A model generated the notes under the pieces. It saw only the letters and a list, made by a program, of their open reading frames with translations. It ran no database searches and was not told where the DNA came from. A program made the position numbers and the translations under genes. DNA of 64,000 bases from an uncultured Porphyromonadaceae bacterium (lineage in GTDB: Bacteria > Bacteroidota > Bacteroidia > Bacteroidales > Muribaculaceae), in assembly GCA_947175545.1 (NCBI GenBank), contig CAMWNI010000003.1:62001-126000 (forward strand), written 5' to 3'. Shown here piece after piece: positions 9,581 to 61,634 of the stretch; the stretch's first letter is position 1, and the number at the start of each line of letters is the position of its first letter.

Positions 9581-9619
9581 CCACTCTTTTTTATAAACCA
9601 ATTAAACCAATCAATTATC

Positions 9620-12577
9620 ATGAGAACCAGAATGACTCTGCTGCTGGTTGCCCTCCTGGCGCTTTGCGGCACTGTTAAGGCCGAACTCGGCAATCTGATT
9701 CCCGCTCCGGCACACATGACCGTCGGAGCCGGCGAACTCACCTTGCCCGCCGGGTTCAATGTCTCGACAGCAGGATTGTCTGACGACATGAAGGCAGAGG
9801 CCGACAAATTTGTTGCAGCAATCAACAAGGCAACAGCTCTCAATGCGACCGCAACCGACGCCAACGGCCTTTTCTCCGTCAGCGTTGACGCAAATCTGCC
9901 TGCTGAAGGTTACGTCCTCAACGTTAGTCCCGAAGCGGTAAACATCACGGCCGGAACCCCTGCCGGACTGTTCTATGCTTTCCAGACTGTCAAGAAAATC
10001 CTGCCCGTAAACGTTATGGCCGGAGTTGCAGGAGCCGAGGGTGCTGAGTATAAGCTTCCCGTTGTCAGCATTACTGACGAGCCGCGCTTTGAATATCGTG
10101 GATTCATGCTTGACGTGAGCCGCCACTTTTTCGATGCCGCTCAGGTCAAGAAGATGCTTGACGTTATGGCAATGTACAAACTGAACCGCTTCCACTGGCA
10201 CCTGACCGATGACCAGGGCTGGCGTTTCCCTGTGGAGAAGTACCCCCTGCTCACAACCCAGGGCGCGACCAACCATAATATTCTCCATGTTAACTTTGAC
10301 GAGCAGACTCGCTATCGCGAAGACAGCGACAACGCAACCTATGACTGCGGCAGCCCTTATGGTCCGTACTTTTACACTCTTGACGAACTGAAGGATATTG
10401 TTGCATATGCGAAGAGCCTTCATATTGAGGTTATCCCCGAAGTTGATATGCCCGGCCACATGATTGCCGCCATCAACTGTTACCCCGAGTTCTCAACCGA
10501 CCCCGAGAGCAACATCGCACTTGCCGCCGGTTACAACAAGAATACTCAGCCGATTCCCGGACAGCAGGACAGCCACTTCACTCATAACATCTGGAACGAC
10601 GGCGGCGTCTCAAAGGACGTTCTCGACGTTTCCAAGCCCGAAGTAGTTCAGTTCTGCAAGGACGTGATTGACGTTCTGGCCAATATATTCCCTTATGAGT
10701 ATATCCACATCGGCGGCGACGAATGTCCCACTTACGCATGGAGCAAGAGTGCCGATGTCCAGAACTTCAAGGAAACTATCGGTTACAAGAAGTCTGACTC
10801 TGACCATGTTCTTCAGACCTGGTTCACCAAACAGATTGCCGACTATGCCAAGCAGAACTATGGCAAGAAAATCATGGCATGGAACGAACTCATCACTGCC
10901 GGCGGTGCTGACATGAACGTGGTCAAGGAAATGGATCCGGCGATTTTCTGCTGGCTTGGTGGTGAACAGAAGGCTCAGAACAACGGCTTGAAGTTTATCT
11001 ATACCCCCTTCAACGGCGGTTACTATATCAACCGCTCTTATGCCGGCTATGACAAAGTCGGTGCCGTTGGTGACGGTCGCCTCTTGACCACTCTCACCGT
11101 AATGCCTCCGCTCTATGACAACTGCATTGGTGTGCAAGGCACTTTCTGGACAGAACAGGTTGAGCGCGGACGCGACGTTGAGTATCTTGCGCTGCCCCGT
11201 CTGCTCGGCATCGCTGAACAGGGCTGGTCTCCCGTTGCCGGACGTGACAATGATGAAGTGATGGAGCGCATCTGCAACGACGCTGCCCTTCTGGATGCCG
11301 CCGGCTATAACTACGGTGCGCACCAGCTTATCCGACCCTCCTCTTATCAGAGTCCCGACCCGATGAAATGGTATCGCCTCCAGAGCATCTGCGGCGACGA
11401 ACGCGCCAATCGTGTCATCGAACTCGTCGTTGCCGGTTCTCCGCTGATATCTTCTAATAGCGCTGTTGAAGGCAAACTCTGGTCCAATACCGTTGACGCC
11501 AACAATGATGCGCAGCTGTTCCGCTTTGTCGAAGACCCCTCGAAGAAGGGTCGCTATGCAATTGTATGCCGGGCTTCCAAAGCCGGTTCAGTCGATGCCA
11601 CTCCGACCGGAACAGCCAATACAGACCGTTGGAACTACTCGGACGACAAGGTTAACTATGGATTCGAACTCAGCAAGGACCACTATTCTGAAGCAGATGG
11701 CGTTTTCCGTTATGCAATCCGTCCGCTCGGGGCAAACTACTATATGAACTATGCCAAGAGCGGTCAGAAGCTTGCAATCAACGTCTGGAATAATCCCAAC
11801 GACGGCAACGGCGGCATCATCTCATTTATTGAAGCTGGCGAGGTTGACCCCTCTGAAGTCGTTACCCCTGAGCCTCCCGTTTCAGCAACCGTTCCCGAAG
11901 AGGGCAAATATTACCGTCTGCTGACCCGTTTCAACGGTGATTCTAACCAGGAACGCTTCGGTTCTTGCATCGAACTCCTCGGCAGCAATCATGACAAGGG
12001 CGGCAACGCACAGTACAACCGCCTTTGGAGCAACGCTCCGGCTTCTCCCGACGCCAACAACTACGACAATCAGTTCTTCACGTTCATCCCTGACCCCGCA
12101 GGCACCGGCTATTATGCAATGGTCTGCAAGGCTATGCCCGGCGGTTCGGTAAAATCTGTCCCCTCCGAGTCGAACAACAGCAACACCGCCCGCTGGGACT
12201 ATGACGACACCGTGCGTCACTTCGGCTTCTACCTTGTCGACTCCTACAATGGCAATTCGACTCAGGGAACCGACGAGGATGGCTTCTACTCGGCTCTGAC
12301 CTCAAAAGACGCAGCCGCAGGCTGGTTCATGAACACTTCGGCCGCCGGCCAGAACTTCTCGATTCATCTCTGGAGTAACCCGCTTGACCAAAACGCAGGT
12401 ATTTATACCTTTGAACCCCTGCCCGAAACAGAAAACCCTAATCCGGGCGAAGAAAGCTCAATGGACACCGTGAATGCGGAAGCTGGCTTCGCCCACATCT
12501 ATGATCTCCAGGGCCGTCGTGTCGTTCCGGGCCGCCGCGGCCTCTATGTCCAGTCCGGTTCACTCATTGTGAAGTAA
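9620..12577 (+). CDS. GH20 beta-N-acetylhexosaminidase with duplicated C-terminal domain
   Basis: Signal peptide; FEYRGFMLDVSRHFF, NRFHWHLTDDQGWR, PEVDMPGH, HIGGDECP catalytic motifs; tandem ~160 aa C-terminal repeats; IYDLQGRRV tail. Confidence 0.95.
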   Translation: MRTRMTLLLVALLALCGTVKAELGNLIPAPAHMTVGAGELTLPAGFNVSTAGLSDDMKAEADKFVAAINKATALNATATDANGLFSVSVDANLPAEGYVLNVSPEAVNITAGTPAGLFYAFQTVKKILPVNVMAGVAGAEGAEYKLPVVSITDEPRFEYRGFMLDVSRHFFDAAQVKKMLDVMAMYKLNRFHWHLTDDQGWRFPVEKYPLLTTQGATNHNILHVNFDEQTRYREDSDNATYDCGSPYGPYFYTLDELKDIVAYAKSLHIEVIPEVDMPGHMIAAINCYPEFSTDPESNIALAAGYNKNTQPIPGQQDSHFTHNIWNDGGVSKDVLDVSKPEVVQFCKDVIDVLANIFPYEYIHIGGDECPTYAWSKSADVQNFKETIGYKKSDSDHVLQTWFTKQIADYAKQNYGKKIMAWNELITAGGADMNVVKEMDPAIFCWLGGEQKAQNNGLKFIYTPFNGGYYINRSYAGYDKVGAVGDGRLLTTLTVMPPLYDNCIGVQGTFWTEQVERGRDVEYLALPRLLGIAEQGWSPVAGRDNDEVMERICNDAALLDAAGYNYGAHQLIRPSSYQSPDPMKWYRLQSICGDERANRVIELVVAGSPLISSNSAVEGKLWSNTVDANNDAQLFRFVEDPSKKGRYAIVCRASKAGSVDATPTGTANTDRWNYSDDKVNYGFELSKDHYSEADGVFRYAIRPLGANYYMNYAKSGQKLAINVWNNPNDGNGGIISFIEAGEVDPSEVVTPEPPVSATVPEEGKYYRLLTRFNGDSNQERFGSCIELLGSNHDKGGNAQYNRLWSNAPASPDANNYDNQFFTFIPDPAGTGYYAMVCKAMPGGSVKSVPSESNNSNTARWDYDDTVRHFGFYLVDSYNGNSTQGTDEDGFYSALTSKDAAAGWFMNTSAAGQNFSIHLWSNPLDQNAGIYTFEPLPETENPNPGEESSMDTVNAEAGFAHIYDLQGRRVVPGRRGLYVQSGSLIVK

Positions 12578-24217: not shown

Positions 24218-27070
24218 TTAGCGGACCACCTGCTTTTTGCCGTTGATGATGTAGACTCCGGGCTTTGCGCCGCGGAGAGTTTGCAGTGCTACTCCGGTCA
24301 GCGTGTAGATTGACGTTCCAGTGTCTGATATTTCAACTTCGCCTATGGAAGAGTCCGGATCAGGATCAACCGGTTCTGGCATGGCAGTCAACTCAAATCG
24401 AAACTTGCAACCCGTGTCCGATGTGTTTGTACCGTCCCCCCAGTTGTAAATCTGGTAGCCGAGGCTGGCGTTGGTCTGGTTCCACTGCGTCTTGTTAGAG
24501 GTCAGAATCATGTAGCCGATTTCGTCGGAAGCTGCGGGAGTCCAGCCGCGGGAGGGTTGGGACTTGACGGTTTTCAGAGCGCTGTTGGTCGAGGCGGATG
24601 GAGAGACATAGCCGCCGTCGGCATAGTTTATTATATTATAGGTGTCGGTATCGGTGCGCTTTTTGAAGGTCCATTTGGCGTCGTCGGTGATGCTTTCGAT
24701 TCCTGAGAGGGCTTTGTTCAGTCCGCCCGTGGCGGCATAGCGTCCGTTGCGCAGGGGCGTTGAAAGAGCGTAGGTCGCTCCGTCAACCGGCATGGAGAGG
24801 CCGGCTGCGGCGGCTGCCGTTTTCATTGCTTCGAAAGCTTCGCGCAGCTGCCGGGCCTGGGTTTCTCGCTCATTGGCCGTAAGGGTCTGGCTGAGGGTCT
24901 CGCGTATTTCAGCGGCAAGGCGGTCAAAGGATTCCGCAACTGCTTCAGGGTAGAATCCGGGAGTATCGCTTATGGAGGCGTTGCGCCACGAAGTCATTTC
25001 GGCCAGTTCGTCCATCAGGGCTTCGGCCTCCTGCTGTAGAATCCGGTTGGGCGAATAGATCAGTCCGTCGAGTGCTGTGTTGCCTTCAGGGTCGGTAATT
25101 ACAAAGGTGAATTGCCATTTATCGCGCCCTGTGCCGCCATTATTGGCATGGGGAAGCTTCATGAACACCTTGTTCCAGCCTTCGTTGAGGTGGATTCGGA
25201 CCGCAGGCCGCGCGGTGAAGTTTTCGTTCCGGAGGCCGGAGGAGATCTGGTCTTGCTTTATGTTAGCTCCGGGCTGAGTCCATTCGGGGGCGGCTATTTC
25301 GGTTCCGTTGAGCCACACGCGCGAGCCTCGGCGGTCCCATTTTCCGGCGTCCGGGCCTTTTTCGTTGCCTGAGCGACTGTAAGTGTAGAATTCAATCAGG
25401 GCGCCGGCTTCCTGCTCGCAGGGAGAGTAGACGTAGGTCCAGGCATAGGCGGTCATGTTGTTTTGCGGATTCTGATAGAAGCCTTTGACCGTGGGGTGCC
25501 AGATGTGGCGCAGATAGATTCCGGCGCCTGTGGCCGTACGGCCCGAGACTGATGAGGGCATCGTCTCGTCGGCAAGATAGTTTTCCGGTTCGAGAACGGC
25601 CGAGGGGTCTCCGCCGTTGGGAAGCTGATCTGTGACGAGCCAGCGAACGTTGGATTGTTTCACGTAGGGGATGAGATGGGCCGTTTCGGCCATAGTCGTG
25701 TGCTTGTGGTGTAGAAAACGGCGTTCCCAGTCGGCAAATTCTTCAAATTCGACTCCTGAGTTGGGGAGCGTGACGCCTCCCTGTTCGATGTACTGCTCGC
25801 CGCCTCCGGTCCACGCTCGCTCGCAGCTTGCAAGAATGTTTGCATATATGTTGTTCTGGCGCACGATGTCTTCCCATGACGGAGTCATTGTGTCGTTCCA
25901 TGCCGCGGAGATTGTGCCGGCAATGTCAGGATTGCCCTGCGTCTGGCCGAAGATTGTCGACTTGAAGATGCCGACGACATCGGCAAACACGTCGAAGTGG
26001 TTTGTATAGTTATAACGCATGTCAATGTTAGGCACTCCGGCACTCAGGGTGCCTGACGTGGCCCAGTTGGTTGTCAGGTCACAGGGAATCACCTTCGGAT
26101 CGACCGTCTTTGCCGGACTGTTGTAGCGATTCCAGATTACAGCTTTCTTGCCAAGAGAGTGGACATAGTCAATCATGTCAATCAGATAGCTGTCCTGGAA
26201 GCCGATTTCATCACCGCCGATGTGGATATATGGTGCTTTGTCAAACAGGTTGGCAACCTCCCTGAGTATAACCTTAAGCTCGGCGATGCCCTCGGCGGTC
26301 TGCATTGAATGGCCCATGGCGCTCTCGAATGGGTGCGAGTGGCCGGGCATATCAATTTCCGGAATGACGGTCATGCCGCGCTCGGCGGCATAGTCCTGAA
26401 TCTCGCGGGCCTGTTCCTGAGTGTAGAACATGCCGGGGAAGCGAGTAATTCCTTTTTCGCCGGTCAGCTGCGGGTAAGCCTTTATTTCGAGGCGCCAGCC
26501 GGTGTAGTCGGTCAGATGCCAGTGGAAAGTGTTGACCTTAAAGCGGCTGAGCAGGTCAATTTCGCGTTTGAGTTCATCAACTGGAATAAACGATCGGCCA
26601 ACGTCGTGCATGAAGCCGCGCAGCTTGAACGCGGGCCAGTCCTTGATTGTAGAACCCTCAATGACGCCATCGCAGTCCTGTGCCATCAGGCGCAGGGTCT
26701 GGGCGGCGCGGGTCACGCCGAGGACCGTCGGGGCCGTGATTGAGATTTCGTCAGACGCGACTGTCAGCAAGTAGGCCTCGGCAGGGTATCCGGCCAATTC
26801 ATAGTCGAAGGCGCCCTCGACCGGAGCGATAGTGACGGAGATGCGAGGTGCGTCGGCGTCGGCTGACAGGGTCAGGCCTGCGTCTGCCATAAAGCGTTTG
26901 AGTTCGGCTGATTCAGTGGGGTCGGAAATCAAAACCTGGCGATTGGTCGCGAAGCCTCCTGCTGCATCAAGAGAGACCTGCTTGGGTTTTGGCATGATAT
27001 TTTCGATTGTGGCGAATGCCGGAGAAGTCATTGCGAGTGCCAGTTCGGCAATGATTAGCTTGCGATTCAT
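24218..27070 (-). CDS. GH20-family beta-N-acetylhexosaminidase, multidomain, exported
   Basis: KLRGFMHDVGRSFIPVDEL, NTFHWHLTDYTGWRLEIKAYP, PEIDMPGHS, HIGGDEIGF; C-terminal ligand-binding-like domains and IYTLTGVAL...PGVYIINGKKQVVR tail. Confidence 0.92.
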   Translation of the reverse strand: MNRKLIIAELALAMTSPAFATIENIMPKPKQVSLDAAGGFATNRQVLISDPTESAELKRFMADAGLTLSADADAPRISVTIAPVEGAFDYELAGYPAEAYLLTVASDEISITAPTVLGVTRAAQTLRLMAQDCDGVIEGSTIKDWPAFKLRGFMHDVGRSFIPVDELKREIDLLSRFKVNTFHWHLTDYTGWRLEIKAYPQLTGEKGITRFPGMFYTQEQAREIQDYAAERGMTVIPEIDMPGHSHPFESAMGHSMQTAEGIAELKVILREVANLFDKAPYIHIGGDEIGFQDSYLIDMIDYVHSLGKKAVIWNRYNSPAKTVDPKVIPCDLTTNWATSGTLSAGVPNIDMRYNYTNHFDVFADVVGIFKSTIFGQTQGNPDIAGTISAAWNDTMTPSWEDIVRQNNIYANILASCERAWTGGGEQYIEQGGVTLPNSGVEFEEFADWERRFLHHKHTTMAETAHLIPYVKQSNVRWLVTDQLPNGGDPSAVLEPENYLADETMPSSVSGRTATGAGIYLRHIWHPTVKGFYQNPQNNMTAYAWTYVYSPCEQEAGALIEFYTYSRSGNEKGPDAGKWDRRGSRVWLNGTEIAAPEWTQPGANIKQDQISSGLRNENFTARPAVRIHLNEGWNKVFMKLPHANNGGTGRDKWQFTFVITDPEGNTALDGLIYSPNRILQQEAEALMDELAEMTSWRNASISDTPGFYPEAVAESFDRLAAEIRETLSQTLTANERETQARQLREAFEAMKTAAAAAGLSMPVDGATYALSTPLRNGRYAATGGLNKALSGIESITDDAKWTFKKRTDTDTYNIINYADGGYVSPSASTNSALKTVKSQPSRGWTPAASDEIGYMILTSNKTQWNQTNASLGYQIYNWGDGTNTSDTGCKFRFELTAMPEPVDPDPDSSIGEVEISDTGTSIYTLTGVALQTLRGAKPGVYIINGKKQVVR

Positions 27071-27154: not shown

Positions 27155-27243
27155 GACAAAAAAATCAGGACGTCATCACGACGTCCTGATTCCTTAACCT
27201 TTATCTTAATCTAATACTATGAAAAACACACGCTGCAAAGTTA
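27155..27243 (-). ncRNA. Candidate small RNA transcription unit (promoter to terminator)
   Basis: Minus strand: TTG-N19-TAACTTTG (-7 box 27236-27243), ~75 nt, then ATCAGGACGTC-GTGAT-GACGTCCTGAT followed by TTTTTTT; no ORF. Confidence 0.55.
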
Positions 27244-34103: not shown

Positions 34104-35096
34104 TTAGTCCTGGTTGAGGTTTACGCGCTTGAAGGAAACGACGGTCAGACCCTTCTGAGTCTGTTCGAGATACTGACCGATGGTCAGGCTGCTGTCCTTC
34201 ACGAATTCCTGCTCAACGAGTACGTTTTCTTTGTAGAACTTGTTGATGCGGCCCTTGACGATGTTTTCAATCATCTGAGCGGGGAGGTTTGCAGCCTTCT
34301 GTTCAGAAACTTCGGCGATAATCTTGCGTGCCTGTTCAGCCTGCTCGGGGGTAATCCAGCCCTTGCTCATATTAGACTCGATGTGGGCTTCAGAGTCAAC
34401 GTGGGCGGGGTTGATGCCGGCCTTGCTCAGAGCGGCGGCAACAGCCTTCTGCACCTGTTCCTGCTTGGTCTTTTCGATTGCTACGTTCTTTTCAGACTCA
34501 ATGATGGCTTCCGAAACAGACTCGCGGTTAACAGCAACGGGGTTCATTGAAGCAACCTGCATTGCAACGTCGCGGCCAACCTGATAGTCAACGCCTTCTA
34601 CGTTGAATCCGCAGATTGTAGCGAGCTTGTTGCCAAGGTGGTTGTAAGAAGTGGTTGAGGGCGCTTCAATCCATTCGTAAGAACCGATTTCGGTCTTTTC
34701 GCCTGTCTTGCCGCCTTCTTCAATAACGAGGTCGGCAACGGTCAGACCGTCAACTGTTACAGCCTTGAGTTCGTCGAGGCTCTTGCATTTGTTGGCAACA
34801 GCCAGGTCAAGAAGTTTCTGGGTGAGGGCAACGAATCCGGCGTTCTTTGCAACGAAGTCGGTTTCGCAGTTGAGGGCAACGATAGCGGCGAACGAGCCTT
34901 CGTTCTTAGCCAGCACGCATCCTTCTGCTGCGTTGCGGTCTTCACGCTTTGCGGCAACTGCCTGTCCTTTTTTGCGAAGGATTTCAACTGCTGCTTCGAT
35001 GTCACCGTTGGTTTCGGCCAGAGCCTTTTTGCAGTCCATCAGGCCGGCGCTGGTGAGGTGGCGCAGCTTGGTGATTTCTGCCATTGTAACTGCCAT
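34104..35096 (-). CDS. tsf: Elongation factor Ts
   Basis: [48 protein letters not shown]. Confidence 0.98.
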
Positions 35097-35139
35097 ATAT
35101 CTTAAGGTATTAAGGGAGTTAATGATTGTTTAATGAATA

Positions 35140-35182
35140 AATCGGGGCTGTCTCTTTTGCGAGGCATCCCCGATTTACTGTT
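35140..35182 (-). other. Stem-loop between rpsB and tsf
   Basis: Minus strand AAATCGGGGATGCCTC-GCAAAA-GAGACAGCCCCGATTT. Confidence 0.55.
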
Positions 35183-48674: not shown

Positions 48675-48799
48675 ATTTTTCCAAATTGTCCGACAAATTT
48701 ACAAAAACTTCCATTCTCCACCAAATTTCTCCTCTCTTTTTTCAAAAAAATCACGGAATAAATTCCCGTTTTACTGCCATGATCGGTATAATAAATTAG

Positions 48800-48940
48800 C
48801 GGGGAGTGACTGTCTCAGCCACTCCTCGTCCAATAATCAACCAATCATTATCACATTTCTTTCACAATGAAAAAAGTCTTGTCGTTGTGTGCGTCTCGAA
48901 GATATAACAACGCCGGATGCGAAACAGTTCACACCCGGCA
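48800..48940 (-). repeat. Dispersed two-hairpin element, copy 1
   Basis: Shares ACAAGACTTTTTTCATTGTGAAAGAAATGTGATAATGATTGGTT.ATTATT core and flanking hairpins with copies at 50661-50801 and 61420-61556. Confidence 0.85.
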
Positions 48941-48944
48941 TGAA

Positions 48945-49000
48945 ATTCGAAGAATCCAATCTCCAACTATTGTTAAATTGGCTGATTGGATTCCTCGAAT
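48945..49000. other. Long imperfect hairpin downstream of guaA
   Basis: ATTCGA-A-GAATCCAATC...CCAA-loop-TTGG...GATTGGATTC-C-TCGAAT; T5 follows on + strand. Confidence 0.7.
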
Positions 49001-49030
49001 CTATGTTTTTGTTATGTCAGAGTAGGTAAA

Positions 49031-50557: not shown

Positions 50558-50660
50558 GAATCGGGAATGTAGGGATTAAACTTTCCGCAAAGTTACGATT
50601 TTTAAATGAAAAAAATGAATAATGAATAAGGAAAAAATGATTTGAGGGTCTAAAGATTAA

Positions 50661-50801
50661 CAAGGAGTGGCTGTCTCAGTCACTCCTCGTCAAATAATAA
50701 ACCAATCATTATCACATTTCTTTCACAATGAAAAAAGTCTTGTTCTGTGTGCTTTTCGAAAATATAACAACGTCCGGCGGAAAAAGGTTCGCTCCGGGCG
50801 T
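50661..50801 (-). repeat. Dispersed two-hairpin element, copy 2
   Basis: Same core block as copies 1 and 3; lies upstream of the guaA TAACTTTG box (50588-50595). Confidence 0.85.
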
Positions 50802-61419: not shown

Positions 61420-61556
61420 GCCGGACGCGAACAATTTCGCGTCCGGTGTTGTTATAATGATGAAATGCATACAGACAAGACTTTTTTCATTGTGAAAGAA
61501 ATGTGATAATGATTGGTTTATTATTGACGAGGAGTGACTGCGACAGCCACTCCCCG
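61420..61556 (+). repeat. Dispersed two-hairpin element, copy 3
   Basis: Inverted relative to copies 1/2; GCCGGACGCGAA-CAAT-TTCGCGTCCGG hairpin, core block, GGAGTGACTG-CGA-CAGCCACTCC hairpin, TTTTTT at 61561. Confidence 0.85.
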
Positions 61557-61634
61557 CTAATTTTTTATGGTATAGTAATTTTTCATTTTTAATTTTTCAT
61601 TTTTAATTTAATTATCGTAACTTTGCGGGCGCTT

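Follow-up and report, generated by a model that had tools for sequence, protein, structure and literature searches.

Within a 64-kb stretch of Muribaculaceae DNA (called the window here, in its whole length), an intergenic element was found in three copies, each of which is very probably the gene of a small RNA (sRNA). The best explanation of the element is probably that of a multicopy trans-acting sRNA with an ECF-type promoter, which would pair with the starts of susC genes and lower the synthesis of the importers they encode. What was read directly from the DNA is the anatomy of the gene, its promoter motif and covariation, where it occurs, and how far seed and targets are complementary. 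Muribaculaceae are dominant in the mouse gut, and no RNA regulator of this family was found in the open-licence literature.

Copies in the window and in the genome

A sequence-only reading of the window had described three near-identical copies of an intergenic element, and these do exist, since a core of 29 nt is found exactly at 48841-48869 (-), 50702-50730 (-) and 61488-61516 (+) while no such exact triplet occurred in 100 dinucleotide shuffles of the window. The ~50-nt core, the 3' hairpin (GAGGAGTG..CACTCC) and the relative orientation of the copies are all as that reading described them. Its count of three holds for the window, but the total is higher, with 7 copies, one of them degenerate, recovered by the covariance model search of the own genome (2.23 Mb, 34 contigs) and a maximum of ~8 copies per Muribaculaceae genome. 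The search of related genomes with a covariance model, which it had proposed, returned further copies, and the aligned copies covary in the terminator stem. The features of the three copies and of one predicted target site are collected in Table 1.

Two other structures were noted in the window. A weak match to the sRNA model at 35088-35182 (+) (25.6 bits, E 0.0067), in which TTAATGATTGTTTAATGAATAA is followed by a strong hairpin, is either a degenerate copy or another terminator. Directly past guaA, at 48944-49001, lies a long near-perfect inverted repeat (ATTCGAAGAATCCAATC...GATTGGATTCCTCGAAT), which is probably the guaA terminator.

Table 1. Coordinates of the sRNA gene copies and of a predicted target site in the window.
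Feature	Position	Strand	Basis or remark
Copy 1, promoter to terminator	48791-48930	-	
Copy 1, -35-like box GAAC of ECF-type promoter	48927-48930	-	motif match; family-wide conservation 119/126
Copy 1, -10-like box GTTATA, spacer 18 nt	48903-48908	-	motif match
Copy 1, predicted sRNA transcript, start ~7 nt past -10 box	48790-48896	-	anatomy; ends inferred
Copy 1, core/seed TGTGATAATGATTGGTTGA, 1 change against family TGTGATAATGATTGGTTTA	48837-48855	-	alignment
Copy 1, terminator hairpin CGAGGAGTGGCTGAGACAGTCACTCCCCG	48800-48828	-	fold, covariation
Copy 2, promoter to terminator	50652-50790	-	
Copy 2, -35-like box GAAC	50787-50790	-	motif match
Copy 2, -10-like box GTTATA	50763-50768	-	motif match
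Copy 2, predicted sRNA transcript, guaA downstream on same strand	50652-50756	-	ends inferred
Copy 2, core/seed	50698-50716	-	alignment
Copy 2, terminator hairpin	50661-50689	-	
Copy 3, promoter to terminator	61429-61566	+	
Copy 3, -35-like box GAAC	61429-61432	+	motif match
Copy 3, -10-like box GTTATA	61451-61456	+	motif match
Copy 3, predicted sRNA transcript, mgtE downstream	61463-61568	+	ends inferred
Copy 3, core/seed TGTGATAATGATTGGTTTA	61502-61520	+	alignment
Copy 3, terminator hairpin and T run	61528-61566	+	
Predicted target site AAACCAATTAAACCAATCAATTATC	9590-9620	+	abuts ATG of GH20 hexosaminidase gene 9620-12577; -20.2 kcal/mol, p<0.01

Anatomy of the element

An alignment was built from 52, later 132, distinct Muribaculaceae copies, and it gives the order of parts as GAAC-N17/18-GTTWTA, a variable stretch, in many copies a U-rich segment (ACTTTTTCCATTG), ATGTGATAATGATTGGTTTA, a terminator hairpin and a T run. 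This order supports the small RNA family that the sequence-only reading had offered among its explanations. The near-invariant core of the 132-copy alignment is AUGUGAUAAUGAUUGGUUUA, its invariance being partly a matter of ascertainment as core matches were the source of most copies. The leader ahead of it is variable in sequence and missing from some copies; the promoter-core distance ranges from 10 to 55 nt, the ends of the alignment are variable, and in 16 of the folded copies the core starts less than 34 nt past the -10 box, so that they lack all or most of the U-rich segment. Predicted folds of the long copies place part of the seed in base pairs.

The terminator hairpin displayed two-sided changes at all 11 of its pairs among 106 distinct rows, with a covariation of 0.747 in the same rows compared to 0.259 for shuffled rows and at most 0.15 with slid partners. 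Its loop is GNGA in every one of 109 rows, and a T run lies 3' of the hairpin in 99 of 123 copies.

The 5' hairpin with CCGG, on the other hand, which had been described as part of a two-hairpin element, folds no better than shuffled sequence over all copies (median -4.2 against -4.7 kcal/mol, 119 copies in which the promoter was located) and was ruled out, leaving the 3' hairpin as the only one that belongs to the element. Folds at or below -10 kcal/mol were obtained for 16 of the 119 copies, 3 of these 16 being the window copies. In the window copies, as in ~10 others, the CCGG hairpin straddles the GAAC box, overlapping the promoter spacer in a few cases, and what is conserved at this stretch is GAAC-N17/18-GTTNTA; the hairpin itself probably terminates the gene before it or is an inverted repeat of local origin. 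Selection preserving G.U pairs in it, as once suggested, found no support outside the own genome, the strong covariation being in the 3' hairpin instead.

Three further candidates were also set aside. A hairpin that RNAalifold places inside the core (GATAATGA/TTATTATT) is invariant in the set and missing where the 3' sequence differs, and is therefore unproven. An antisense leader peptide (MKKVL...), spotted by eye in the window copies, has a start that is not kept in short copies and a frame that is not conserved, and for a sense peptide (MIGL...) the open reading frames from ATGATTGG vary in length from 3 to at least 30, again without a conserved frame.

Promoter motif and predicted transcribed strand

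A pair of boxes, GAAC and GTTNTA, with a spacer of 17 or 18 was found in 119 of the 126 copies with full upstream sequence. The strict form GAAC-N17/18-GTTWTA is present in 88 of 125 copies compared to 0.4 in shuffled sets, and on the antisense side it was found in 0 of 123. The -7 box of the housekeeping factor sigma-ABfr (TAnnTTTG) was seen in 6 of 125 copies against a shuffled expectation of 7.2, which is chance level. Since promoter, core and terminator are ordered on the strand of the core, and the T run follows the hairpin, that strand would be the transcribed one. The question of orientation, left open by the sequence-only reading, is thus decided in favour of the ACAAGACTTTTTTCATTGTGAAAG strand, which is the minus strand for copies 1 and 2 and the plus strand for copy 3.

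The promoter is near-palindromic and usually has T or C ahead of GTT (TGTT/CGTT at -10). PM2 of Bacteroides is a non-canonical, near-palindromic promoter with boxes near -10 and -30 (PMC7366714), it has TGTT at -10, and an ECF reading has been proposed for it (PMC12596196). Compared with this published description, the promoter of the element fits in its boxes at ~-30 and ~-10, its near-palindromic form and TGTT at -10, and it is likely of ECF type and would be used by an ECF factor here.

Throughout the own genome, the motif gave 17 matches as against 11 for a reversed-pattern control, barely above it, and with no clear excess of this kind a genome-wide promoter regulon was not retained. Outside the sRNA loci there are 13 matches, several of which lie 23-54 nt ahead of exported-protein genes. 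At 6 own-genome loci GAAC-N-GTTNTA boxes precede exported or stress genes, named by inspection of their translations as lipoproteins, PepSY-like and rubrerythrin-like. Such genes may possibly form a regulon of the same sigma factor, the excess of matches over the control being unclear.

Genomic context and distribution

Flanking sequence was sufficient for 92 copies. Of these, 91 lie between genes, and the downstream gene shares the strand of the copy in 41 cases and is opposite to it in 51, which is random. Consequently, the element is an independent gene and not a cis leader.

By BLAST, copies were detected in 40 of 99 related genomes, and a DNA scan of named genomes located them in Duncaniella muris DSM 103720, Paramuribaculum intestinale DSM 100749, Muribaculum and many MAGs. 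With the covariance model, the RNA is present in 97 of 147 near-complete Muribaculaceae genomes and in 17 of 26 genera, and within a genus it is usually in all genomes or in none. Outside Muribaculaceae the model returned 0 copies in an order-level sample, and the bare 19-mer pattern only two matches, each with 1 mismatch.

Comparison with the sampled loci, those of congeners among them, showed the window copies to be at non-orthologous sites; copy positions may turn over quickly under a seed and promoter that appear fixed. In 5 loci of other genera, copies stand in tandem or in close clusters, at distances of ~180 bp to 1.2 kb. Contig ends of draft assemblies often abut copies.

Predicted targets

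When 12 TonB receptors from the own genome were examined, predicted duplexes of -20.2 and -19.7 kcal/mol were obtained for two susC genes, with sites that end at the start codon (AUAAACCGAUCUAUUAGCACAUA|AUG and AAUAAACCAUUCACUAUCAGAGAACCUU|AUG). A wider test took in 71 susC start regions from 7 genomes with the RNA and 70 from 6 genomes without it, start codons being predicted and paralogues not fully independent. At a shuffled-seed p<=0.02, 22 of 71 susC genes passed in genomes with the RNA compared to 4 of 70 in those without (Fisher p=1.4e-4). With dinucleotide-shuffled targets, the counts were 20/68 with the RNA, 1/34 in genomes of the same family without it and 3/36 in other families. When other seeds were run against the 71 susC genes, 24 passed with the core, 2 with the seed of a FopS RNA in the window, 7 with the reversed core and 6 with the U-rich leader. 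Perfect 12-nt matches (ACCAAUCAUUAU) lie 9-26 nt ahead of the ATG in susC start regions, and the pairing is mostly at -30 to -1. A strong site is missing in about two thirds of susC genes. A search with the seed-complement pattern at up to 3 mismatches returned the sRNA loci themselves as its sole matches.

Other genes in RNA-carrying loci passed in 31 of 455 cases, and in a repeat with new shuffles 14 of 105 signal-peptide genes and 16 of the 350 remaining ones did so. The best duplex of these 455 background genes belongs to the GH20 hexosaminidase gene of the window (9620-12577, +; Pfam GH20), which has a tandem AAACCAAT directly ahead of its ATG. A conserved seed with predicted complementarity to several outer-membrane-protein start regions, as would be expected of a trans-acting repressing sRNA, was found, and the targets are likely susC together with exported glycan-use proteins.

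Proposed mechanism and alternative explanations

It is proposed that each copy would be its own gene for a trans-acting sRNA of ~75-105 nt, transcribed by an ECF-type alternative sigma factor from a promoter like Bacteroides 'PM2' and built of a leader that can be dispensed with, a seed of ~20 invariant nt and an intrinsic terminator with a GNGA tetraloop. The seed would pair ~30 to 1 nt ahead of the start codon of susC-type TonB-dependent importers and of some exported glycan-use proteins, most likely blocking ribosome access, whereby an active sigma factor would lead to less synthesis of outer-membrane nutrient importers; the multiple copies would serve dosage, which could be raised quickly. 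We infer transcription, the class of sigma factor, the direction of repression and the stress signal, repression being expected because of the position of the sites and the FopS precedent (PMC11697453). With modest confidence, the RNA may be regarded as the arm by which an envelope (or starvation/redox) stress response of Muribaculaceae in general represses genes through noncoding RNA, with a single invariant seed directed at susC importers and exported glycan hydrolases.

A genuine sRNA family whose core is mainly a protein-binding site (RbpB-like or sponge), with susC pairing as a side effect of A/U-rich leaders, is unlikely, even if the invariance is longer than that of a typical seed, FopS RNAs bind RbpB via their conserved 5' part (PMC11697453) and a slight excess of matches over shuffles is seen in genomes without the RNA, as the enrichment is confined to RNA-carrying genomes, concerns susC and exported genes specifically, and requires the core to be read in the right direction. 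It is quite improbable that an sRNA of the same anatomy has its main targets elsewhere or acts by activation: the pairing is mostly located where the Bacteroidota precedent (FopS, PMC11697453) predicts blocking, although strong sites are restricted to ~1/3 of susC genes and the GH20 gene and other exported genes score too.

The sequence-only reading had also considered a small non-autonomous repeat; a mobile repeat (MITE, REP) devoid of RNA function would account for non-orthologous sites even between sampled congeners, for tandem copies and for contig ends that abut copies, but is very improbable given that the ends are not fixed, common terminal inverted repeats are missing, internal spacing including the promoter-core distance is variable, the promoter boxes are kept with a spacer free to vary, the core is invariant and the changes in the terminator stem are compensatory. 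Hardly to be credited is a cis-acting role as 5' leader or attenuator of whatever gene lies downstream, for which all three window copies would speak by facing a same-strand gene (the coiled-coil/rny operon, guaA and mgtE), since downstream genes are split 41 to 51 between the strands, the element has a terminator of its own with a T run, and promoter, core and terminator form a closed unit.

As for the trans-acting sRNA, the predictions of its promoter class, its unvarying seed and its susC and hydrolase targets make it directly testable whether stress sigma factors of Bacteroidota shut down polysaccharide import via RNA.

Comparison with known RNAs

No paper on the Muribaculaceae sRNA family described here was found in the open-licence literature. 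The comparison with Rfam, proposed earlier, was run and no family covers the element copies, which gave no match to RF04319 at E<=5 and E<=10; a match to BTnc231 at one locus was discarded as a terminator resemblance below the Rfam cut-off.

FopS (RF04319) of Bacteroides is a paralogous sRNA family that pairs with susC starts and blocks translation (PMC11697453). The Muribaculaceae RNA resembles it in being multicopy, in its predicted susC start pairing and in its plan, FopS being ~65-70 nt with a single-stranded conserved 5' part and an intrinsic terminator. FopS genes have housekeeping sigma-ABfr promoters, whereas those of the Muribaculaceae RNA are ECF-type GAAC/GTT boxes, and the R1' seed of FopS is not that of the core, the seed of the window FopS showing no excess of susC pairing (2/71). 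By model, promoter or seed, the Muribaculaceae RNA is thus not FopS. A separate FopS sRNA was located in the window at 27155-27229 (-) (58.1 bits, cut-off 56), ~85 nt upstream of the GH20 gene 24218-27070 (-) and with TAACTTTG upstream of it; as FopS has been described for Bacteroidaceae, this copy extends its range to Muribaculaceae. Next to FopS, the element would be another family of multicopy RNAs directed at susC, independent of the first, and this hints at convergent recruitment of such RNAs for the control of glycan uptake.

GibS (BTnc035) of Bacteroides thetaiotaomicron has a PM2 promoter, trans action and start-region pairing (PMC7366714), like those predicted for the Muribaculaceae RNA, but was described as a single intergenic RNA with seeds R1 and R2; this comparison is by description, and the cmscan of the copies listed no GibS match.

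An enterobacterial parallel is the shut-down of porins through RNA by stress sigma factors. RybB, one such RNA, is Hfq-dependent. RybB and MicA (PMC1804206) have an envelope-stress ECF sigma promoter and a seed and lower outer-membrane-protein mRNAs, as is proposed for the Muribaculaceae RNA, but there is no sequence relation, and phylum, targets and promoter details differ. FoxI and FoxJ of Fusobacterium (sigma-E-dependent, PMC11005410), from an unrelated phylum, are, as the Muribaculaceae RNA would be, the noncoding branch of an ECF regulon in a phylum other than Pseudomonadota. If the proposed reading is true, the Muribaculaceae RNA would be the Bacteroidota counterpart of RybB/MicA, with copies whose positions turn over more quickly than species do, the seed remaining unchanged.
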